Shown: piece by piece, positions 9,849 to 31,700 of the stretch | Numbering within the stretch: position 1 is the stretch's first letter | How the letters are laid out: each line of letters begins with the position of its first letter | DNA from: Candidatus Contendibacter sp. | Lineage (GTDB): Bacteria > Pseudomonadota > Gammaproteobacteria > Competibacterales > Competibacteraceae | Assembly (NCBI GenBank): GCA_029624765.1 | Contig: JARSSO010000016.1 | Span: 1 to 64,000, forward strand | DNA length: 64,000 nt | Reading direction: 5' to 3' | Position numbers and translations under genes: made by a program | Notes under the pieces: model-generated | What the model saw: the letters and a program-made list of their open reading frames with translations, nothing else | Told to the model about the DNA's origin: nothing | Database searches by the model: none

Positions 9849-12602
9849 TCAATGCGCCTCGTCCCAATTTGCGCCCACGCCGACATCCACCTCCAACAGC
9901 ACGCGCAACTCCGCCGCCGCGACCATCGCCGCCCGGATGCGCTCTCCGGCTTCGGTAACGGCATCCTCGGCCACTTCAAACACCAGTTCGTCGTGAACCT
10001 GCATCAGCATCCGCGCCGGGAAGGCGGAGTCTCGCAACCAGCGGTCCACCGCCAGCATCGCCCGCTTGATGATGTCGGCGGCGGTGCCCTGCATCGGTGC
10101 GTTGATGGCCGCCCGTTCCGCCGCTTGCCGAAGCTGCGAATTGCGGGCGCGAAGGTCTGGCAGATGCAGCCGGCGGCCGAACACCGTCTCCACATAGCCC
10201 TGCTCGGCGGCCCGGCGGCGGGTGTCGTCCATGTACGCCTTGACGCCCGGATAGCGGGCGAAATAGCGCTCCACGTAATCCTTCGCCGCACCGCGCTCGA
10301 TGCCCAGTTGTTGCGCCAGCCCGAACGCCGACATGCCGTAGATCAGCCCGAAATTGATGGCCTTGGCGCCGCGCCGCTGGTCGGCGGTGACTTCATCCAG
10401 GGCCACGCCGAACACCTCGGCGGCGGTGGCGCGATGCACGTCGGCGCCGGTGGCGAAGGCGCGTAGCAAGCCCTCGTCGCCGGACAGATGGGCCATGATC
10501 CGCAGCTCGATCTGCGAATAGTCCGCCGCCAGCATCACCCAGCCCGGTTCCGGCACAAACGCCTGGCGGATGCGCCGCCCTTCCAGGGTGCGGATCGGGA
10601 TGTTCTGCAAGTTGGGATCGGAGGACGATAGCCGGCCGGTGCTGGCCACCGCCTGATGATAGGAGGTGTGGACCCGGCCGGTGCGTGGATGGATTTGCTC
10701 GGGCAACCGGTCGGTGTAGGTGGATTTCAGCTTGCTCAGGGTCCGGTACTCCAAGATGACCTTGGGCAACGGATAATTCAGCGCCAGCTCCTGCAACACA
10801 TCCTCGGCGGTAGAGGACTGGCCGGTGGCGGTTTTCTTCCCCGCCGGCAAACCCATTCGCTCAAATAGAATCGCCTGCAACTGCTTGGGCGATCCCAGGT
10901 TGAACCGCTCCCCGGCCAGGTCGTAAGCCTGCTGCTCCAGTTCCCATAGCCGTTTGGCCAGTTCACCGCTGTGCTGGCGCAACACCGCCGCGTTCACCCG
11001 CACCCCGGTTCGTTCCATCCGCGCCAGGATCGGGATCAGCGGAATTTCCAGCTCTTCATACAACCGCTTCAGCCCCGGTTCCCGCTCCAGGCGCGGCCAC
11101 AGGTAGCGATGCAGGCGCAAGGTCACGTCGGCGTCCTCGGCGGCGTAGGGTCCGGCCTGCTCCAGCGCTACCTGGTTGAAGGTCAACTGCTTCGCGCCCT
11201 TGCCCGCCACGTCCTCGAAGCGAATGGTGCGCAGCTTCAGGTGCCGCTCCGCCAGCGAATCCATGTCGTGCCGGGCGGTCGAATCCAGCACGTAGGATTC
11301 CAGGAGGGTATCGTGCCGGATGCCGCGCAGGGCAATGCCATGATTGGCGAGTACGTGCAGATCGTATTTGAGATGCTGGCCCAGTTTGGGCCGCGTCGGG
11401 TCTTCCAGCAGCGGGCGCAGTTGTTCCAGCACGTGCTCCCGGTTCAACTGGTCCGGGGCGCCGGGGTAGTCGTGCGCCAAGGGTACGTAAGCCGCCTCGC
11501 GTGGGTTCGCTGCGAAGGACACGCCGACGACGCGGGCATCCAGATAATTGAGGCTGGTGGTTTCGGTGTCGAAAGCGAGCAGTTCCGCTGTCCGCAGCCG
11601 CTCCAGCCAGGCGTCGAAAGCGGCTTCATCGAGGATCAGTTCGTAGGCGGGCGGCGGGCTTGTAAGCTCCTCGCTTTCGGTCAAGTTGAGGGGGGCGCCT
11701 GCCGCAAGAACTGCCCTCACCCCCGGCCCCTCTCCCGCTTGCGGGAGAGGGGAGGACAACTCCCGCAGCCAGGAGCGGAATTCATAGCGTTCGTACAACG
11801 CTCGCAATGCGTCGGTATCAGGGGGTGCGGGCCGCAACTCCTGGAACGCGATGGACAGCGGAACGTTGCAATCCAGGGTGGCGAGCTGTCGGGATAGCGG
11901 CAGTTGATCCAACCCGGCCCGGAGCTTGTCGCCGATCTTGCCGGAGATCGAGGCGGCGTTGGCCACCAGATTGTCGAGCGAACCGTACTGGCGCAACCAT
12001 TTGGCTGCAGTTACCGCACCCACACCGGGCACGCCGGGAATGTTGTCGGAACTGTCGCCGACCAGCGCCAAGTAATCCACGATCAACGCCGGTGGCACCC
12101 CGAACTTCTGTTCGACCCCAGCGACGTCAGTCACCATGTTCTTCATGGTGTCCAGCATCCGCACCCGCTCGTCCACCAGTTGCGCCAAGTCCTTGTCGCC
12201 ACTGGCGATCAGCACCGGCAGACCCTTGGCCGTCGCCTGCCGGGTCAGCGTGCCGATGACATCGTCGGCTTCGACGCCCGTCACTTGCAGCAACGGCAGG
12301 CCCATGGCCCGGACGCAGGCGCGCAGCGGTTCGATCTGTTGAATCAGTTGCGGGTCCAGCGGCGGCCGATGCGCCTTGTAGTCAGCGAACATCGCGTGGC
12401 GAAAGGTCTTGCCGGGCGCATCGAACACCACCGCCAGATAATCCGGCCGGTAGTCGGCCAGCAGCTTGCGCAACATGTTCAACACGCCATACAGCGCGCC
12501 GGTTGGTTCGCCAGACTTCGTGCTCAGCGCCGGCAGCGCGTTGAAGGCCCGGTGCAGCCAGGAGGAACCATCCACCAGCAACAGCGGTTTGGGTGCGGTC
12601 AT
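9849..12602 (-). CDS. polA: DNA polymerase I
   Basis: Repair and Okazaki-fragment-processing polymerase, 917 residues. Domains in order: 5'-3' nuclease (about 1-280), 3'-5' exonuclease (about 325-510, FDTET acidic motif retained) and family A polymerase. Polymerase motif A is DYSQIELR, motif B is RRGAKAINFGLIYG and motif C is QVHDELVFEV. The linker between nuclease and exonuclease (about 281-298) reads SPLPQAGEGPGVRA and is encoded by a palindromic repeat inserted in frame (see the repeat entry). It starts 12 bases after the larB stop, so it may be read through from the lar genes, an unusual arrangement for polA. Confidence 0.97.
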   Translation of the reverse strand: MTAPKPLLLVDGSSWLHRAFNALPALSTKSGEPTGALYGVLNMLRKLLADYRPDYLAVVFDAPGKTFRHAMFADYKAHRPPLDPQLIQQIEPLRACVRAMGLPLLQVTGVEADDVIGTLTRQATAKGLPVLIASGDKDLAQLVDERVRMLDTMKNMVTDVAGVEQKFGVPPALIVDYLALVGDSSDNIPGVPGVGAVTAAKWLRQYGSLDNLVANAASISGKIGDKLRAGLDQLPLSRQLATLDCNVPLSIAFQELRPAPPDTDALRALYERYEFRSWLRELSSPLPQAGEGPGVRAVLAAGAPLNLTESEELTSPPPAYELILDEAAFDAWLERLRTAELLAFDTETTSLNYLDARVVGVSFAANPREAAYVPLAHDYPGAPDQLNREHVLEQLRPLLEDPTRPKLGQHLKYDLHVLANHGIALRGIRHDTLLESYVLDSTARHDMDSLAERHLKLRTIRFEDVAGKGAKQLTFNQVALEQAGPYAAEDADVTLRLHRYLWPRLEREPGLKRLYEELEIPLIPILARMERTGVRVNAAVLRQHSGELAKRLWELEQQAYDLAGERFNLGSPKQLQAILFERMGLPAGKKTATGQSSTAEDVLQELALNYPLPKVILEYRTLSKLKSTYTDRLPEQIHPRTGRVHTSYHQAVASTGRLSSSDPNLQNIPIRTLEGRRIRQAFVPEPGWVMLAADYSQIELRIMAHLSGDEGLLRAFATGADVHRATAAEVFGVALDEVTADQRRGAKAINFGLIYGMSAFGLAQQLGIERGAAKDYVERYFARYPGVKAYMDDTRRRAAEQGYVETVFGRRLHLPDLRARNSQLRQAAERAAINAPMQGTAADIIKRAMLAVDRWLRDSAFPARMLMQVHDELVFEVAEDAVTEAGERIRAAMVAAAELRVLLEVDVGVGANWDEAH
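11711..11760. repeat. Palindromic dispersed repeat inserted in frame within polA
   Basis: A 12-bp perfect stem (11727-11738 with 11741-11752, loop TT) flanked by CCCTCACCCCCGG. This is the form of a REP-like element usually seen between genes. Here it stays in frame with polA and falls in an interdomain linker. A diverged relative lies at 16105-16143. Confidence 0.85.
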
Positions 12603-12614
12603 CGCTCGCTCTCG

Positions 12615-13370
12615 TTAAGGCTGGTTGATCATGCTGGCCAGACAGGCCGCGCCAAAACCGTTGTCGATGTTCACCACGCCCACCCCGCCGACGCAGGACG
12701 TCAGCATCCCCAGCAGCGCCGACAGCCCGTTGAAATTGGCCCCGTAACCGACGCTAGTCGGCACGGCGATCACGGGGCGGGCCACCAGGCCGGCCACCAC
12801 GCTGGCCAGCGCTCCTTCCATGCCGGCGATCACGATGCAAACCCGCGCCGCGCGGATCACGTCCAGCCGAGCCAGCAGGCGATGCAGCCCGGCCACGCCC
12901 ACGTCGTTGATCCGCTCGATCCGGTTGCCGAACAGCAGCGCGGTTTCCGCCGCCTCCTCGGCCACCGGCTGATCGGACGTGCCGGCGGTCACGATGGCGA
13001 TGTAGGCTTCAGTCAGGGGGCGGATGCAACGCTGAATAACGATGACGCGCCCCAGCGGGTTGTAGCGGGCCGCCGGCCAGAGTTCCGCCACGGCCTCGTA
13101 CATCTCCACCGTGGCGCGGGTGGCGAGAATGTCGCCATCGCCTTCCAGCAGGGCGGCGACGATGGTCTTGACTTGGGCGACGGTCTTTCCAGCGCAATAA
13201 ATCACCTCGGGATGACCACGCCGCAATTCGCGGTGGCTGTCGAGCACCGCCTCGCCCAGATCGCGAAACGGCAGTTCCCGCAATCGGTCCACCGCTTGGT
13301 CCACCATCAGTTCGCCGGCGCGGACCTGCTCCAGCAACGCCCGCAAGGTTTCCTCGCGCACGCCACTCAC
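12615..13370 (-). CDS. larB: LarB, pyridinium-3,5-biscarboxylate mononucleotide synthase
   Basis: First enzyme of nickel-pincer nucleotide cofactor synthesis: it carboxylates nicotinic acid adenine dinucleotide and releases AMP. The 251 residues show the family layout. A short helical N-terminal part is followed by an AIR-carboxylase (PurE)-like domain with ATRATVEMYEAV, TAGTSDQPVAEEA and the C-terminal SVGYGANFNGLSALLGML and NIDNGFGAA blocks. Its ATG overlaps the larE stop (ATGA), so translation is coupled. PurE itself is excluded by the length and the LarB-specific C-terminus. Confidence 0.93.
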   Translation of the reverse strand: MSGVREETLRALLEQVRAGELMVDQAVDRLRELPFRDLGEAVLDSHRELRRGHPEVIYCAGKTVAQVKTIVAALLEGDGDILATRATVEMYEAVAELWPAARYNPLGRVIVIQRCIRPLTEAYIAIVTAGTSDQPVAEEAAETALLFGNRIERINDVGVAGLHRLLARLDVIRAARVCIVIAGMEGALASVVAGLVARPVIAVPTSVGYGANFNGLSALLGMLTSCVGGVGVVNIDNGFGAACLASMINQP

Positions 13371-14188
13371 TCCGCCAGCGGGCGCACGTTGAAGCTGCCC
13401 ATCCGATAACCCCGCAAATCCAGGGTCACGTACTGAAAGCCGCAGCCGGTCAGCGCCGCCGTCACCTGGTCGGCGACGGCTTGGTCCAGCAAGCGGGGAT
13501 GCTCGGCTGGATCCACCTCGATGCGCGCCAGATCGCCGTGACAGCGCACGCGAACCGCACGGAAACCCAGCGCCCGCAACGCTTCCTCGGACGCCTCCAC
13601 CCGCCGCAATAAATGGAGATCGACCTGGGTGTCGTGCGGCAATCGCGTCAGCAGGCAGGCCGAGGCGGGTTTGTCCCAGACCGGCAGGTTCAGGGCGCGG
13701 GCGTAACGGCGAATCTCGGTCTTGCCCAATTCGGCTTCCAGTAGCGGGCTGCGAACCTCCAGCTCGCGCAAGGCCCGCATTCCCGGCCGGTAGTCCGAAA
13801 GGTCGTCCCGGTTGGTGCCGTCCGCGAGCCAGGGAAATCCTTCCTCGGCGGCGGCGGCCTTCAGTTCGGCGAACAGGGCTTGTTTACAGCGGTAGCAGCG
13901 ATCAGGCGGGTTACGGACGATCTCTGGCGGTATCGGCAGGTTCAGCACCCGGTGGCGTACATCCAACATCCGGGTCAATTCCTCGACCTGGACGATTTCG
14001 TAGGTCGCCATGTAGGGCGTCGCCACGGTCAGTGCCAGCACCCGGTCTCCCAGCGCCAGCCGGGCCGCCGCCAGCAACAGGCTGCTGTCGAGTCCGCCGG
14101 AGCAGGCCACGGCAACCGAACCCAGCTCGCGCAGCAACTCCAGCAGACGTTGAAAGCCAGTCTCGGCCAATGCAATGTCGGCGCTCAT
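13367..14188 (-). CDS. larE: LarE, ATP-dependent sulfur-transfer enzyme
   Basis: Adds sulfur to the pyridinium biscarboxylate nucleotide, giving the dithiocarboxylate precursor of the nickel-pincer cofactor. An N-type ATP pyrophosphatase P-loop SGGLDSS lies at about 30-36. Cys178 in PASACLLTR matches in context the sacrificial cysteine of Lactiplantibacillus LarE (Cys176). Cys98 and Cys101 (CYRC) form a further pair, so a [4Fe-4S]-dependent, non-sacrificial mechanism known for some LarE proteins is also possible. Length 273 residues. The gene overlaps larC upstream and larB downstream by four bases each. Confidence 0.93.
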   Translation of the reverse strand: MSADIALAETGFQRLLELLRELGSVAVACSGGLDSSLLLAAARLALGDRVLALTVATPYMATYEIVQVEELTRMLDVRHRVLNLPIPPEIVRNPPDRCYRCKQALFAELKAAAAEEGFPWLADGTNRDDLSDYRPGMRALRELEVRSPLLEAELGKTEIRRYARALNLPVWDKPASACLLTRLPHDTQVDLHLLRRVEASEEALRALGFRAVRVRCHGDLARIEVDPAEHPRLLDQAVADQVTAALTGCGFQYVTLDLRGYRMGSFNVRPLAE

Positions 14189-15387
14189 GGAGACGACCGC
14201 GCCGGTTCCGGCCCCAGTTCGTAACTCGACAAAGCTTCCCGCACCGCCGCGTAGACCGCGTGAATCGGCACGCGCCGTTCCAGCGCCAGTCGCTTGCAGT
14301 CTTCGTATTCCGGTTTACCGCGCAGTGGCCGGCCTTGGTGGTGGGCAAGCTTGACGGTCACTTCACCGTAGCGGGTCGTCACTTGCAGAAGTTCCCGCGC
14401 CAGCGCGGTGCGGGTCACCGGGTACTGACGCACGCCCAGAGTGGTGGTTTCAATCAGCAACAATTCGGTCAGGGTCGGCCCCAGATCCGGCGCGCATAAC
14501 ACGCATAACACGGTCGCCGGTCGGTTCTTCTTCATCAGCGCCGGCGCGAGCCACGCATCGTTCGCCCCCGCCGCGAACAGCCGCTCCAACACATGGTCGT
14601 AGCACTCCGGGTTCATGTCGTCGATGTTGCATTCCAACACGCACAATTCCCGCCGATCCTCGCGATCCGCCAGCCACTCGCCCAGGCAAACCCGCAGCAC
14701 GTTGGGGATGGGGCCGTCGTGATGGCCGATGCCATGGCCGACCCGGTGGATGATCAGTTCGGGGCGCGTCACGAATTCATCGACCAAGGTGGCCAGCAGC
14801 GCCGCGCCGGTCGGGGTGGTCGCCTCGAACGGCGCACCGCCCAGCTTGACCGGAACGCCCTTGAGCAATTCCAGGGTCGCCGGGGCGGGGGCTGGCAGCA
14901 CGCCGTGCTCGCAGTGCGCCATGCCACCGCCCAATTCCACCGGCGAACACAGCACGCGATCCACGTTCAGCCGGTCCAGGGCGATGACGCCGCCGACGAT
15001 GTCCACGATGGCGTCCAGCGCGCCCACTTCGTGAAAGTGGATGCGATCCGGCGAGGTATCGTGAATATGCGCCTCGGCCTCGGCCAGCCGGCGGAATACC
15101 GCAATGGCCCGGCTTTGCACCGACTCCCGAAGCAGGCTGGCGCCGATGATCGCCTCGATCTGGCGCAGATCGCGGTGCGCGGGCTGGTTCGGGTCCGTCA
15201 CCACCCGCACCTGGGTACCGAACACGCCCTTGCGGCTGGCCCGCGTGGCCTGCACGCCGTAACCCTCCATGCCGAGTCCGGTCAGTTCGAGGACCAGTTC
15301 GTCGTAGTCCACGCCCAAGTCGAGCAGCGCCGCCAGGTGCATGTCGCCACTGATGCCGGCGAAGCAGTCGTAGTACAGGACGCTCAT
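14185..15387 (-). CDS. larC: LarC, nickel insertion protein of pincer cofactor synthesis
   Basis: CTP-dependent cyclometallase that inserts Ni into the dithio-pyridinium nucleotide. The protein has 400 residues, undivided, unlike the frameshifted LarC1/LarC2 of some Firmicutes. The N-terminus is the family signature YYDCFAGISGDMHLAALLDLG; HFHEVGALDAIVDIVG and NIDDMNPECYDHV follow. It lacks the very His-rich insert of some LarC proteins. It lies 33 bases after the polyferredoxin gene and overlaps larE. The target enzyme, LarA or a LarA-like racemase/epimerase, is not in the window. Confidence 0.93.
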   Translation of the reverse strand: MSVLYYDCFAGISGDMHLAALLDLGVDYDELVLELTGLGMEGYGVQATRASRKGVFGTQVRVVTDPNQPAHRDLRQIEAIIGASLLRESVQSRAIAVFRRLAEAEAHIHDTSPDRIHFHEVGALDAIVDIVGGVIALDRLNVDRVLCSPVELGGGMAHCEHGVLPAPAPATLELLKGVPVKLGGAPFEATTPTGAALLATLVDEFVTRPELIIHRVGHGIGHHDGPIPNVLRVCLGEWLADREDRRELCVLECNIDDMNPECYDHVLERLFAAGANDAWLAPALMKKNRPATVLCVLCAPDLGPTLTELLLIETTTLGVRQYPVTRTALARELLQVTTRYGEVTVKLAHHQGRPLRGKPEYEDCKRLALERRVPIHAVYAAVREALSSYELGPEPARSSP

Positions 15388-15420
15388 CGCCGCCGTGCGT
15401 CCGTGGTGAATCGGTGCCGG

Positions 15421-17013
15421 TCAAAATGGAAATTCACCTTGCGTCTTCTCTCGCTCAAGGGGTTTGGAAGTGGGGCGCGTGGCCTGTTGCTGGACTGGGT
15501 GGCCGTCCACGTAAATGGCTCGGTGTGGCCGGGCCGGACAGGCATTCTCGCAGGCGCCGCAACCGACGCACAGCGTTTCCCGTACTTCCGGGATCGTCAG
15601 GCCATCCCGGTAGGGGATCATATGCACCGCCTTGGTGGGACAATATTCGTCGCAGGCGCCGCAGGCGGTGTGATCGGTGTACACGATGCAATTGTCGCGA
15701 ACGAAGTGGGCCACGCCGATCTGGACGGTTTGCTTGGCGGCCAAGGCCAGCGGCCGGATCGCGCCGGTCGGACAAACCTGGCCGCAAAGATTGCATTCGT
15801 AGCTGCAATAACCGCTGGCGTAGTCCATGCGCGGTTGCAGCAGGCCGGACAGGCCGTAATCCAGCAACGCCGGTTGCAACACGCCGTAGGGGCAGGCGCC
15901 GACGCATAGATGACAGGCGGTGCAGAGATCGTTGAAGCGGGCAATATCGCCGACACCGGGGGGCGCTGTCGGCCAGGTTTTGCGGTTGACCAGCGCCGTC
16001 GGAACGCGATTGTGAGGCTTGGCTTCTACCGGTTTTAACTCGGGCAGCGCCGCCCAGCCAACCAGCGCCGTTGTCGCGCTCCGCAGCAATGCCCGCCGCG
16101 AAACTCCCTTCTCTCCGGTGGAGAGGGAGGCCAAGGGTGAGGGGTGAAGCTTCACCGGCGCCGACCGCGCGTAGCCGATGCCGTGCGCCTCGCAAACCGT
16201 GATGCAATTGAAGCAGGCCACGCAGCGGCTGAAATCGATCTCCTTGGTTTTCAGCCGGATGCAGCCCGCCTTGCAATGAATCGAACATTGGGCGCAGACG
16301 AGGCAAGCGTCTTTGGGAATCCGAATCTTGAAGAGCGCGAAGCGCGAGACCAGCCCCAGCAACGCGCCCACTGGACAGAGTGTGTTGCAGAACAACCGGC
16401 CATGCCGGGCGCTCAGCCAGATCAGCCCGGCCAGGAACAGGATTGGAAACGCCAGCGTGGCCAGCGGCGGCGCTTTCCACGTCAAGGGGAATGGCCCGTA
16501 CAGCCCCAGGGTTTCGAGCAACGATCCGACGCCGTTATGAGCGATGATGTAGAGCGGCCGCAGCAGATCGCTGGCGATTCGGCCGAAGTTGCTGAACGGA
16601 TCCAGCAGGCTCAGCGCCAGGGTGCTGCCGCTCAGGAACAAGCCGACCGTCAGCGCCAGCACGCCGTAGCGCAACGCATCATGCGGTTTTTGAGGTCTGA
16701 ACTTGATCTTGCGCGGTTTGCGCAGCTTGTCCGCGACGCGAATGATGATGTCCTGCAACGTGCCCAGCGGACAGATCATCGAGCAGTACACCCGGCCAAA
16801 CAGCAGGGTCAGCCCCAGCACCAGCACGAATCCGGTGGCGACCAGAGCGAAGGTCTGGGTGAAGTTCAGCAGCGACGGCACGAACTGTGGATACCGCGCG
16901 GCTTGCGCGAGCGGCGGGCTGAACCGGTCGAAATCCACGAACAGCAGCGTGGTCAGCACCAGGAAGATCAGCGAAACCACGACCCGGATTTTTTTGAGCC
17001 ACATCTGATTCAT
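15421..17013 (-). CDS. Membrane polyferredoxin, NapH/NapG-like fusion
   Basis: Iron-sulfur electron-transfer protein of 530 residues. The N-terminal half is NapH/NosR-like: about four to five membrane segments in the first 210 residues, the CxxxCP motifs YCSMICPLG and FCNTLCPVG, then two ferredoxin clusters (CLVCAQCSIHC, CVACFNCITVC). The C-terminal half has four more [4Fe-4S] motifs in a NapG-like order (CTACHLCVGACP, CNLCGQVCP, CGACDEYCP, CVGCGACENACP). The halves are joined by a linker that includes a palindromic repeat and then SRRALLRSATTALVGW, which resembles a NapG twin-arginine signal or an extra membrane helix. No nitrate reductase genes are nearby; it heads the larCEB unit. Its electron donor and acceptor are unknown. 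Confidence 0.85.
   Translation of the reverse strand: MNQMWLKKIRVVVSLIFLVLTTLLFVDFDRFSPPLAQAARYPQFVPSLLNFTQTFALVATGFVLVLGLTLLFGRVYCSMICPLGTLQDIIIRVADKLRKPRKIKFRPQKPHDALRYGVLALTVGLFLSGSTLALSLLDPFSNFGRIASDLLRPLYIIAHNGVGSLLETLGLYGPFPLTWKAPPLATLAFPILFLAGLIWLSARHGRLFCNTLCPVGALLGLVSRFALFKIRIPKDACLVCAQCSIHCKAGCIRLKTKEIDFSRCVACFNCITVCEAHGIGYARSAPVKLHPSPLASLSTGEKGVSRRALLRSATTALVGWAALPELKPVEAKPHNRVPTALVNRKTWPTAPPGVGDIARFNDLCTACHLCVGACPYGVLQPALLDYGLSGLLQPRMDYASGYCSYECNLCGQVCPTGAIRPLALAAKQTVQIGVAHFVRDNCIVYTDHTACGACDEYCPTKAVHMIPYRDGLTIPEVRETLCVGCGACENACPARPHRAIYVDGHPVQQQATRPTSKPLEREKTQGEFPF
16105..16143. repeat. Palindromic repeat in frame within the polyferredoxin gene
   Basis: CTCTCC/GGAGAG (16111-16116 with 16120-16125) flanked by GGCC and GGGTGAGGGG. 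It is a diverged relative of the element in polA, also preceded on the minus strand by CCCTCACCC. It is translated as PSPLASLSTGEKGV between the two halves of the protein. Confidence 0.7.
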
Positions 17014-17057: not shown

Positions 17058-17657
17058 TCAGGATGAACTTTCGGTGTTTGGTGACGCTTCCGGCAAGCCT
17101 GTTCCTTCGTACAGTTCCGCCAATCGAATCGTCAGACCGGCGCAGGGCAGAGTTAATTCCGCTTGTGGATCGCTGAATTCCGCCCGCCGCCAGTCGCTGT
17201 CTTCCCGCCAATGCAGGGCGGCGCCGATCCGGTCCTGCTCCAGCAGCAGATAGGCGTGCAGGCTGTCCAGCCGGGCGTAGGCGAAGAGTTTTTCCCGCTG
17301 ATCGGTTCGGGCGGTTCCGCTGGACAGCACTTCGACAAGCAGGCAGGGCCGGGTCCGGTAGTACGGGTCACGGTCGTCGGGGTCGCAACAAACCATCAGG
17401 TCGGGGTAGTAGAAAATCTGCACTCCCAGTTCCTTGAGGTGCAGCTTGACGTCGGCGACGAATACCTCACACGGCGAGCCGCGCAAGTGACCCATCAATC
17501 GACTGGCTAGATTGAGGGTAATTCGATTATGCCGGGTGCTGGCCCCGGCCATGGCGTAAATTTCGCCGTTGATATACTCGTGCTTGATCTCGCTGCGTTC
17601 CTCGAAAGCAAGGTAGTCCTCCACGGACAGCCAGCGGGGTTGAAGTTGCGCGGACAT
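17058..17657 (-). CDS. Uma2 family (DUF820) putative endonuclease
   Basis: A 199-residue protein of the Uma2/DUF820 family, part of the PD-(D/E)xK nuclease superfamily. The nuclease-like residues are Asp in YYPDLMV, Glu in LVEVLSS and Lys in REKLFAY. The N-terminus WLSVEDYLAFEERSEIKHEYINGEIYAM is the usual family opening (quoted in part: EDYLAFEE, KHEYINGEIYAM). The family is often present in many copies, especially in Cyanobacteria and Chloroflexi; its role is not settled. It stands alone between the polyferredoxin operon and coaBC. An isolated copy like this may have been acquired by transfer, but base composition does not show it. Confidence 0.85.
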   Translation of the reverse strand: MSAQLQPRWLSVEDYLAFEERSEIKHEYINGEIYAMAGASTRHNRITLNLASRLMGHLRGSPCEVFVADVKLHLKELGVQIFYYPDLMVCCDPDDRDPYYRTRPCLLVEVLSSGTARTDQREKLFAYARLDSLHAYLLLEQDRIGAALHWREDSDWRRAEFSDPQAELTLPCAGLTIRLAELYEGTGLPEASPNTESSS

Positions 17658-27007: not shown

Positions 27008-28108
27008 TCAGTCGAAGCTCCTTAGGGCCAGTCCACAGGCAATCAGCAACGATGGCGCGTCGCGCAGCAGGGCGTTGCTGTTGACCCGCGCGGCGCTCCC
27101 CATGTTTTTGAAGGGATTGGCCACCACCGTGGTCATGCCCAGCACATCCGCCACGACCCGGTCCAAACCCACGACCGTGGCGCCCCCACCCCCTAAGACG
27201 ACGGTATCTACATTATAGCGGCCAGAAACATACTGGTCAGAGGAAAAAAAGAACTGCAAACCATGGCCGATCTGTTCAGCCAGCAGTTGCTTGAACGGCT
27301 CTAGAATTGTGGTTGGGTAATCCTCGCTCACCATGCCGGAACGCTTGGCCTGTTCAGCCTGGTCACGGGGCAGGCCGTAGGCCTCGGCGATCCGAACAGT
27401 CAGTTGATCACATCCGAAGCGCTGCTCGCGGGTGAAGATCACGCGATCCTGCTGAAGGATATAAAGGGTGGTAAGGGTGGCGCCAATGTCCACGAGCGCC
27501 GTCAGGCTGTCCCGCGCCTTGGTCAGGCTCAGTCCGCCCTCGCCGCCCGTTTTGGGCAGACTTTCCATCAACACTCGAAAGGCATTTTCGAGGGCGTAGG
27601 CTTCCACGTCCACGATCACCGGCGTCAGGCCCGCATCCTTGAGGGTTACCTCCCGGGTGTCGACGTTCTCCTTGCGCGTGGCCACCAGCATGACATCCTG
27701 GATGTCGGTGCTGGCCGGAGACAAGCCTTTCGCCTCGAAATCCAGATAGACCTCCTCGATGGGATAGGGAATGTACTGGGTTGCTTCAATCGCGATATTG
27801 GTTTCGATATCGCTTTCCTTGAAGTCCGCCGGCATTGGCACGGTGCGGGTAATCACGCTGGAGGTTGGCACGGCGACGGCCGCGCGGCGTGTTCGGGCGC
27901 CAGCCTTGCGACAGGCTCGCTTGATCGCTTCCGCCACCCCATCGGTGTCGGCGGGGTTGCGATCCTCCACCATGCCTTCGCCCAAGGGCTCGATGGCGAA
28001 ACTTTCGACCCGAAACCGTGGTCCGGAACGGCTCAGTTCGACCAGCTTGACCGCCGAGGGACCGATGTCGATGCCCAAAAAGGGTTCTTTACGCGTGAAC
28101 AGAGCCAA
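27008..28108 (-). CDS. pilM: Type IV pilus assembly ATPase-fold protein PilM
   Basis: Cytoplasmic actin/FtsA-like protein that binds the PilN tail and helps dock the pilus motor. The ATP-binding fold shows FLGIDIGPSAVKLVELSR near the N-terminus, LVDIGATLTTLYIL in the middle and VVLGGGGATVVGLD. I chose a TTG start at 28108 because GAGGAAG lies six bases before it and the protein then begins in the family manner (LALFTRKEPFLGIDIG); this gives 366 residues. The frame extends 25 codons further to an ATG without a ribosome site. It is the first gene of the pil unit. Confidence 0.93.
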   Translation of the reverse strand: MALFTRKEPFLGIDIGPSAVKLVELSRSGPRFRVESFAIEPLGEGMVEDRNPADTDGVAEAIKRACRKAGARTRRAAVAVPTSSVITRTVPMPADFKESDIETNIAIEATQYIPYPIEEVYLDFEAKGLSPASTDIQDVMLVATRKENVDTREVTLKDAGLTPVIVDVEAYALENAFRVLMESLPKTGGEGGLSLTKARDSLTALVDIGATLTTLYILQQDRVIFTREQRFGCDQLTVRIAEAYGLPRDQAEQAKRSGMVSEDYPTTILEPFKQLLAEQIGHGLQFFFSSDQYVSGRYNVDTVVLGGGGATVVGLDRVVADVLGMTTVVANPFKNMGSAARVNSNALLRDAPSLLIACGLALRSFD

Positions 28109-28173
28109 GTTACGCTTCCTCGCTTGAGTGGAACGAGTGATCGCTCGAACGCTCGCTCCATGAAATATCAGAG

Positions 28174-28182
28174 AATATAGCA
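28174..28182 (-). promoter_or_regulatory. Candidate extended -10 promoter of the pil unit
   Basis: On the minus strand TGCTATATT, an extended -10 form, lies about 65 bases before the TTG start of pilM. No good -35 box is seen, which fits an extended -10 promoter. An imperfect 14-bp palindrome with a central GATC (28134-28147) lies between it and the start. Confidence 0.35.
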
Positions 28183-28281
28183 AATGATCGTATCCACGGT
28201 GTCGTCGGGCAGCGGCCTGGCTTATCCGCGGATGGTGGTTGTCCTCGTCCTGAACCGCTCGCCCGCGCCCGGAGTTCGCCC

Positions 28282-28890
28282 ATGTCCCGCCGCCTTCGCG
28301 ACGACCGTCGTCTCAAGACCCTGATTGCCCAGGAATGCGCCCGGCTCATCGTCGAGGAAGGCGTTCAGAACTTCGGCGCCGCCCGGCGCAAGGCCGCCTC
28401 GCGGCTGGCCATCAACGATCGGACCATCCTGCCGGACAACGTCGCCATCGAGCAAGCCCTGCTCGACCGCCAGCGGCTGTTCCATGCCGACCGTCAAGCG
28501 GTCCATCTGCGGGGCTTGCGAGAAACCGCGCTGAAGGCCATGCGGTTTCTGGCGCGCTTTCGCCCACGCCTGATCGGTTCGGTGCTGAGTGGCGCCGCTG
28601 GCCCCCACGCCAGCATACAACTGCACCTGTTCGCCGATTCGCCCGAGGAAATCACGCTGTTCCTGCTGGAATGCCATATTCCCTTCGAAACGGATGAGCA
28701 TCGGCTGAACATGGCTAGCGGTGCCCGGGTCTGCCTGCCGGTCTTTCGCTTCACCGCCGGCGAGGCTTGCATCGATCTTACGGTCTTTGGGCCGCTGGCC
28801 GAGCGGGAAGCTCCGCTCAGCCCGGTCAATGGCCGCCCCATGCGGCGAGCGGGCTTGGCCGAGGTCGAGGCCCTGCTGGCCGAATCTTGA
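28282..28890 (+). CDS. Conserved protein of unknown function, possible nucleotidyltransferase fold
   Basis: A 202-residue soluble protein. The N-terminal half is helical and basic (MSRRLRDDRRLKTLIAQECA..., FGAARRKAASRLA). The middle has LIGSVLSGAAGPHASIQLHLFAD, here split as LIGSVLSGAAG and IQLHLFAD, which resembles a degenerate nucleotidyltransferase signature (hGS followed by an acidic strand). I recall similar short proteins in Proteobacteria labelled as a Mur ligase; nothing in this sequence supports Mur ligase activity. It is divergent from pilM, where mrcA is often found in Gammaproteobacteria. Function unknown. Confidence 0.7.
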   Translation: MSRRLRDDRRLKTLIAQECARLIVEEGVQNFGAARRKAASRLAINDRTILPDNVAIEQALLDRQRLFHADRQAVHLRGLRETALKAMRFLARFRPRLIGSVLSGAAGPHASIQLHLFADSPEEITLFLLECHIPFETDEHRLNMASGARVCLPVFRFTAGEACIDLTVFGPLAEREAPLSPVNGRPMRRAGLAEVEALLAES

Positions 28891-30057: not shown

Positions 30058-30663
30058 ATGCCGCTCTCCGCTCCCGTTTCGCGCCAGTTGTTGCACCGGC
30101 GCATCGTGCATTGCGCGGGTTATCGCCGCGAGGATGGATTATGGGATATTGAGGGCCAACTTGTGGACACCAAGGCCTATTCGTTTCCCAACGAGGACCG
30201 GGGCGGCGCCATCCAGGCTGGCGAGCCGTTGCACGAGATGTGGATTCGCCTGACGGTGGACGACCAGTTCCAGATCCGCGACGTGGAGGCCCGCACCGAC
30301 GCCGCGCCGTTCGGGCTTTGCCCCGCCATCACCTCCCGCTACCGACAACTGATCGGCGCGCGGGTCGGGCCAGGCTGGTCGCTCAAACTCAAGGAATTGT
30401 TCACCGGCGTGCAGGGTTGCACCCACATGACGGAATTGCTTGGCCCAGTCGCCACCACCCTGTTCCAGACGGTCTACGGCCAGCGCTACGACGAGGAAGA
30501 CGCCAAACCCGCCGCCGACCGGGCGCCGCCACCGGTCTTGAACACCTGTCACGCTCTGGCCAGCGACAGTCCGGTGGTGAAAAAACGCTGGCCGCGGGGG
30601 TACAGCGGACCGGATCGGGAAGGGGAGGGGCGTCTCCAGCCGCTGTTGGACGCTATTACCTGA
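30058..30663 (+). CDS. DUF2889 family protein
   Basis: A 201-residue protein of the DUF2889 family, function unknown. Family hallmarks are the N-terminal IVHCAGYRREDGLWDIEG (in part), LVDTKAYSF, HEMWIRLTVD, the central FGLCPAITSRYRQLIG and the conserved GCTHMTELL. The ATG at 30058 is chosen because GGAGG lies seven bases before it; a TTG four codons upstream is too close to that site. The C-terminal 30 residues are basic and less conserved. It runs toward gpsA, with 38 bases between the stops. Confidence 0.88.
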   Translation: MPLSAPVSRQLLHRRIVHCAGYRREDGLWDIEGQLVDTKAYSFPNEDRGGAIQAGEPLHEMWIRLTVDDQFQIRDVEARTDAAPFGLCPAITSRYRQLIGARVGPGWSLKLKELFTGVQGCTHMTELLGPVATTLFQTVYGQRYDEEDAKPAADRAPPPVLNTCHALASDSPVVKKRWPRGYSGPDREGEGRLQPLLDAIT

Positions 30664-30701
30664 ATGAGCCGCGAGCCAGGGTGACGTGGGCGATGCCGGC
30701 T

Positions 30702-31700
30702 TCAGACCCCCTCGGGTTTGGGGTCGCGCGCTAACAGCACCTCGACCGCCCGGCGTGGCTCCTGGCCATGATACAGCACCTCGTTGACCTGTTCGGTGAT
30801 CGGCATTTCCACCTCGCGCCGCCGGGCCAGCCGCAGTACTTCCCGCGCCGTGGCCACTCCTTCCACCACCTGACCGATGGCCGCGACGGCTGACTGGGTG
30901 GTTTCGCCCCGGCCAATGGCCAAACCGAACCGGCGATTGCGCGACTGGTCGTCGGTACAGGTCAACACCAGATCGCCGATACCGGCCAACCCCATGAACG
31001 TTTCGCGCTGGCCGCCCACCACCAGCCCCAGTCGCGCCATCTCCGCCAGCCCGCGGGTAATCAGCGCCGCCCGGGCGTTGGCGCCGAATCCCAGACCGTC
31101 GGCGATACCGGCGGCGATGGCCAGCACGTTCTTGACCGCTCCGCCCAGTTCGACACCGATCACATCCAGGCTGGTATAGGCGCGCAGATTGGACCCATGC
31201 AACAAGGCCGCCACCCGCCGCGCGTGAATCGCGTCAGTGGAGGCGACGGTGACGGCGGTGGGCAAACCGCGCGCCACTTCCCCGGCGAAACTGGGTCCCG
31301 AAATCACCGCCGCCGGCCAGGCCGCCCCCAGTATCTCCGCCGTGACCTCGTGCAGAAACCGTCCTCCACCGTGTTCCAGACCCTTGGTGGCCCAGGCGAA
31401 ACCGGCGTCCGCTGGCAAATGCGGCCGCAATCGCGTCAGGGTCACTCCATAGGCGTGACTGGGCACCGCCGCCAGCGCCAGATCGACGCCAGCCACCGCT
31501 TCCGCCAGGTCGAAACCGACAGTCAGGGTCGAAGGAAAGGGAATGCCGGGGAGATAGCGACGGTTTTCCCGGTCCCGGCGCAGCGGCGCGATTTCTTCAA
31601 GGTCGTGGCCCCACAGCCGGACCGCGTGGCCGTTGCGCGCCAGCAGCAGCGCCAGCGCGGTGCCCCAGGAGCCGGGACCGAGCACCGCGACCGTGGCCAC
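30702..31700 (-). CDS. gpsA: Glycerol-3-phosphate dehydrogenase [NAD(P)+]
   Basis: Reduces dihydroxyacetone phosphate to sn-glycerol 3-phosphate for phospholipid synthesis. A Rossmann motif LGPGSWGTALALLLARNG opens the 332-residue protein. The catalytic lysine lies in GAVKNVLAIAAGI, and substrate-site NARAALITRGLAEM and GLAGIGDLVLTC follow. It starts 12 bases after secB, the usual gammaproteobacterial order. Confidence 0.97.
   Translation of the reverse strand: MATVAVLGPGSWGTALALLLARNGHAVRLWGHDLEEIAPLRRDRENRRYLPGIPFPSTLTVGFDLAEAVAGVDLALAAVPSHAYGVTLTRLRPHLPADAGFAWATKGLEHGGGRFLHEVTAEILGAAWPAAVISGPSFAGEVARGLPTAVTVASTDAIHARRVAALLHGSNLRAYTSLDVIGVELGGAVKNVLAIAAGIADGLGFGANARAALITRGLAEMARLGLVVGGQRETFMGLAGIGDLVLTCTDDQSRNRRFGLAIGRGETTQSAVAAIGQVVEGVATAREVLRLARRREVEMPITEQVNEVLYHGQEPRRAVEVLLARDPKPEGV

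Follow-up and report, generated by a model that had tools for sequence, protein, structure and literature searches.

The nickel-pincer cofactor NPN is made in the cytoplasm by LarB, LarE and LarC, and in LarA it transiently accepts a hydride from 2-hydroxyacids. A separate, membrane-linked system, NapGH, transfers electrons from quinol to the periplasm. NPN synthesis genes are not always accompanied by LarA: larBCE without larA is already known from ~15% of genomes, for example those of cyanobacteria, and the user of the cofactor in them is yet to be identified (PMC11796402). LarA itself shares a Pfam clan, CL0471, with the DUF362 family (PF04015) (PMC11770544).

The locus described here resembles these orphan larBCE sets in carrying NPN synthesis genes without LarA, and differs from them in that a specific candidate user (DUF362) and an electron carrier (a membrane polyferredoxin, PFD) are linked to it. 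The window, a 64,000-nucleotide stretch of a Competibacteraceae genome that is 99.95% complete, contains the following features:

17058..17657, minus strand: Uma2-family gene, just upstream of PFD
15421..17013, minus strand: PFD, membrane polyferredoxin; open reading frame with ATG start, 530 aa
PFD, ~residues 1-290: NapH-like membrane part with 5-6 hydrophobic segments and two [4Fe-4S] motifs, at 237 and 264
PFD, residue 305: internal twin-arginine-like segment, SRRALLR
PFD, residues 364-492: NapG-like part with four [4Fe-4S] sites
15388..15420, minus strand: PFD-larC gap of 33 bases, without a promoter- or terminator-like site
14185..15387, minus strand: larC, nickel insertion in NPN synthesis; above the NCBIfam TIGR00299 and NF052512 cut-offs
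13367..14188, minus strand: larE, sulfur transferase with CxxC-C (98, 101, 178); above the TIGR00268 cut-off
12615..13370, minus strand: larB, carboxylase/hydrolase of NPN synthesis; above the NF033503 cut-off
9849..12602, minus strand: polA, downstream of larB in most lar-bearing relatives

The unit therefore reads PFD-larC-larE-larB-polA, with PFD at its head. The polyferredoxin that the first-pass annotation placed 33 bases upstream of larC is a real reading frame, and no promoter or terminator is predicted in the intervening gap. The ATGA overlaps it described hold for larC/larE (4 bases); larE and larB also overlap by 4 bases, but as GTGA, because the start codon of larB is GTG. Twelve bases separate larB from polA which, like HppA in related genomes, is probably an incidental conserved neighbour. 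All three Lar proteins of the window exceed their NCBIfam equivalog cut-offs, as do the copies of three genomes outside the family (G365, G470, G250).

In Pfam, PFD has two Fer4_5 matches along with matches to several Fer4 families. In common with the NapH/NapG and MauN/MauM pairs, it combines a CxxxCP membrane part with two [4Fe-4S] sites, an RR segment and a four-cluster part, an arrangement that bears out its description as a NapH/NapG-like fusion and for which a quinone-to-periplasm route is presumed. Unlike those pairs, it is a single fused chain and falls far under their NCBIfam cut-offs, scoring 80.8 bits against NapH/MauN (cut-off 213) and 50.5 bits against MauM/NapG (cut-off 179). PFD is thus not assignable as NapH or NapG by cut-off, and its working may be NapGH-like. 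A further difference is that its conserved partner is DUF362, with no nap genes noted adjoining. The approximately eight [4Fe-4S] motifs originally proposed are too many: the 29 cysteines fit six canonical sites (two NapH-type and four NapG-type) plus two CxxxCP pairs (77/81 and 209/213).

No match to LarA (PF09861) was found anywhere in the window's genome, nor in any of 39 Competibacteraceae genomes, though 20 of these carry LarC and a 21st (G028) retains a larC remnant only. The early remark that no larA lies nearby is accordingly strengthened. PFD occurs in 22 of the 39 and adjoins larC in 12, in addition to the window's own genome. In several genera of the family the conserved order is HppA-CBS-DUF362-PFD-larC-larE-larB-polA, the related contigs bearing the names Candidatus Contendobacter and Competibacter. 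Joint absence is seen as well: in G006, the locus is without DUF362, PFD, larE and larB, and a PFD remnant precedes the surviving larC. In one genus of the family (L052 8729-9741, also L112 and L114), two small membrane-protein genes stand beside larC, and in two of these three loci they lie between larC and larE; we take them to be AzlC- and AzlD-like (branched-chain amino acid export).

The third partner, a Tat-signal DUF362 protein, is encoded outside the window, on contig C41 of the same genome (~30340-31239). Near it lies a second Uma2 copy, 93% identical to the first, followed by a 34-aa PFD fragment (C41 ~27751-28502; L057 7752-8503), and the unit was therefore broken by a rearrangement, which separated PFD-larCEB-polA from DUF362. 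Decayed PFD fragments directly after DUF362 in two further genomes (G018 and G015) are distinct from this one. One option raised by the first-pass annotation, that the enzyme using the pincer acts together with membrane redox, proves the better-fitting of the two it offered, but the candidate enzyme itself had been missed because DUF362 is not in the window. The idea that PFD has no partner oxidoreductase was discarded once DUF362 emerged as its conserved partner.

The DUF362 protein of the window's genome scores 175 bits against PF04015, far above the Pfam cut-off; its nearest NCBIfam model is NF052623 (Npun_F2552 family), below whose cut-off the module proteins fall. Those of related contigs start with a twin-arginine sequence, MQRR. 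Several traits are shared with the LarA superfamily (Lar_N, PF09861; lactate racemase and other 2-hydroxyacid racemases and epimerases): LarB, LarC and LarE accompany both, both belong to the same clan, and a His/Lys segment can be aligned. LarA proteins also score against PF04015 (E = 1.2e-4), one LarA frame above its cut-off. Unlike LarA, DUF362 has a Tat signal and is paired with a membrane ferredoxin, and a profile search of it found only PF04015, with no Lar_N match. The lar-associated DUF362 proteins examined all keep RR, KPN, K183, H185, K195, N196 and G199, whereas a divergent DUF362 from a LarC-negative genome (G081) is without H185 and K195. The H185/K195 segment aligns with H174...K184 of LarA, an alignment of the local sets by hhalign that is weak and non-significant (probability <1%), and the local DUF362 and LarA profiles fail to find each other. 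A PDB sequence search returned no match for either protein, and an AlphaFold2 model of DUF362 from seven close sequences (pLDDT 45) was too poor for fold comparison. Among mobile elements, the viral contigs searched held one partial DUF362 relative only, and the plasmids yielded DUF362/PFD relatives from Bacteroidales and clostridia only, together with LarC of other lineages.

Adjacency of PFD and larC, conserved over Competibacteraceae, recurs in other layouts in other lineages. In a distant gammaproteobacterium (G250), larC-larE-larB-DUF6599-DUF362-PFD lie on one strand with mostly small overlaps, followed by an aldo/keto-reductase (AKR)-like gene; PFD there is 29% identical yet full length. 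When the search was widened to the phylum, PFD turned up in 43 genomes outside Gammaproteobacteria, DUF362 being present in 40 of these and adjoining PFD in 35. The usual cluster order outside the class is AKR-DUF6599-DUF362-PFD. The AKR-like protein carries an RR signal, as DUF362 does, and the DUF6599 protein is membrane-anchored; both genes recur beside DUF362-PFD (L178, L165, L061). Seven genomes outside the class have larC no more than 3 kb from PFD, and two layouts occur among them: the order is DUF6599-DUF362-PFD-larC-larB-larE in G365, PFD-larC adjacency is also seen in G384, G388 and G403, in G470 PFD adjoins larE, next to which are larB-larC, and G407 and G418 have larC <3 kb away. 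In the remaining PFD genomes outside the class, lar genes are elsewhere in the genome or were not found.

The association extends beyond linkage. Among 398 Pseudomonadota genomes, 52 have LarC; 41 of these have PFD without LarA, six have LarA without PFD, none has both and five have neither. In the 346 LarC-negative genomes LarA never occurs and PFD occurs in three, all of which are 69-76% complete. Put the other way, LarC is present in 41 of 44 PFD genomes versus 11 of 354 without PFD, a co-occurrence that holds at the genome level for unlinked genes too. DUF362 is absent from all six LarA genomes and from 26 other genomes of the phylum. Fisher values on the 398 genomes overstate significance, the genomes being related, and most of the co-occurrence outside the class may go back to one ancestral event. 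A within-genus permutation in Competibacteraceae nevertheless gave p = 0.003 for DUF362 with LarC and p = 0.011 for PFD with LarC, and in the gammaproteobacterial sample LarC or a remnant accompanies DUF362 in five of six genomes versus 4 of 268 others. Conserved adjacency and genome-wide co-occurrence thus support the functional link that had been suspected, and a functional tie between the PFD/DUF362 module and lar is very probable.

LarE speaks to the nature of that tie. Cys98, Cys101 and Cys178, singled out earlier as possible cluster ligands, are all present in the window's protein as a CxxC plus a third active-site cysteine, and match the CxxC-C pattern of the common [4Fe-4S] type of LarE, whose described activity works with a cysteine desulfurase (PMC9283937). 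By its cysteines the window's LarE belongs to this type, with a cluster predicted. The other suggestion of the first-pass annotation, that cofactor synthesis needs PFD electrons, for example for an Fe-S LarE, is unlikely, since CxxC-C LarE is common and has a cysteine desulfurase as partner, and LarA-type genomes lack PFD. Electron supply to LarE was rejected on these grounds as the main role of PFD.

We lean towards DUF362-PFD being a LarA-independent user of NPN in Pseudomonadota, with PFD as a quinone-facing electron carrier, and consider the chances even that DUF362 itself holds the cofactor. In the proposed sequence of events, NPN made in the cytoplasm by LarB, LarE and LarC would be loaded on DUF362, the clan relative of LarA, and the folded holoprotein would be exported by the Tat system, as its RR signal suggests. 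There NPN would take a hydride from, or give one to, a 2-hydroxy acid, a 2-oxo acid or a similar substrate, and electrons would leave or arrive via the NapG-like clusters and the NapH-like membrane part of PFD, in exchange with the quinone pool. The outcome would be net oxidation or reduction, not racemisation. In other classes, the cluster also includes the Tat-signal AKR-like protein and the membrane-anchored DUF6599 protein. More tentatively, the DUF362 proteins of the module could form a group of periplasmic NPN oxidoreductases carrying out net redox chemistry, with electrons passing to or from quinones via the NapGH-like polyferredoxin, and DUF362 could play a comparable part in those cyanobacteria and haloarchaea whose larBCE genes come without larA; among the control genomes, those of Synechococcus elongatus and Haloferax volcanii both encode LarC and DUF362 but no LarA. 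The literature searched, from which most subscription journals were outside the scope, holds no work tying DUF362, polyferredoxin or DUF6599 to lar genes, and DUF6599 itself gave no match; the sole contact is the use of DUF362 as an outgroup in a LarA tree. The module thus names a testable candidate for the missing NPN user and gives it an electron partner and a location in the cell. If the reading is true, the nickel pincer drives net redox chemistry linked to respiration, and part of the large DUF362 family gains its first function.

Other explanations account for parts of these data. DUF362-PFD might be tied to NPN metabolism without DUF362 holding NPN, by supplying electrons for synthesis or by the redox upkeep of the cofactor or of another NPN enzyme. 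Strong co-occurrence and linkage are compatible with such a role, as is a LarE of the oxygen-labile [4Fe-4S] type, but NPN is made without PFD in LarA-type genomes, and two features, the Tat signal of DUF362 and the RR segment that precedes the NapG-like part of PFD, indicate a periplasmic location, apart from the cytoplasm where synthesis takes place. The clan kinship of DUF362 and LarA would moreover be a coincidence, and we regard this explanation as unlikely. That PFD and lar are unrelated, their pattern owing to shared ancestry and chance neighbourhood, is already disfavoured and improbable: although the PFD-positive genomes of the 398 are, apart from that of the window, all from outside the class and could owe PFD to a single acquisition in a common ancestor, and although polA and HppA are conserved neighbours that are probably incidental, several different lar arrangements adjoin the module, and both the within-genus association of DUF362 with LarC and the gammaproteobacterial counts given above run against it.

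The main objections to the reading of DUF362 as an NPN protein are a Bacteroidales DUF362-PFD pair without lar nearby and a few genomes with lar only or PFD only. In Parabacteroides distasonis, DUF362 and a PFD-like 4Fe-4S gene form a pair upstream of tgt, with no lar genes nearby (L230 6861-9398), and this DUF362 keeps the same residues as its lar-associated counterparts; in a control, Bacteroides ihuae, DUF362 is present and LarC absent. PFD is kept without LarC or DUF362 in G013 and G038, and larC without PFD or DUF362 in G006 and G025. In G028, a clean ~3.2-kb deletion removed larC from codon 24, the AzlC/AzlD-like genes and larE (L037 10064-10153 versus L052 7527-10756), and left PFD and DUF362 intact. 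The Bacteroidales pair, the LarC-less genomes with PFD and the retention of PFD and DUF362 in G028 after lar loss would all suit an older, NPN-independent respiratory module that shares substrates or a niche with another NPN enzyme, the linkage then marking a common pathway. LarC genomes, however, split near-exclusively between LarA and PFD, lar adjacency is repeated in different orders, and the loci examined show no other recurrent candidate, which makes such independence quite unlikely.

The preferred reading, DUF362-PFD as an NPN user, leaves a small set of LarC genomes aside. Four (G341, G590, G658 and G464) are without LarA, DUF362 and PFD, and perhaps have an NPN user of yet another kind or a LarC with a different role; the fifth genome with neither LarA nor PFD, G442, combines DUF362 with a LarC fragment. 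In G130, LarA is also present and adjoins the module. A protein segment of this genome (contig C270; L130 295-738) has weak matches to PF04015 as well as to Lar_N, as an intermediate between the DUF362 and LarA families might.
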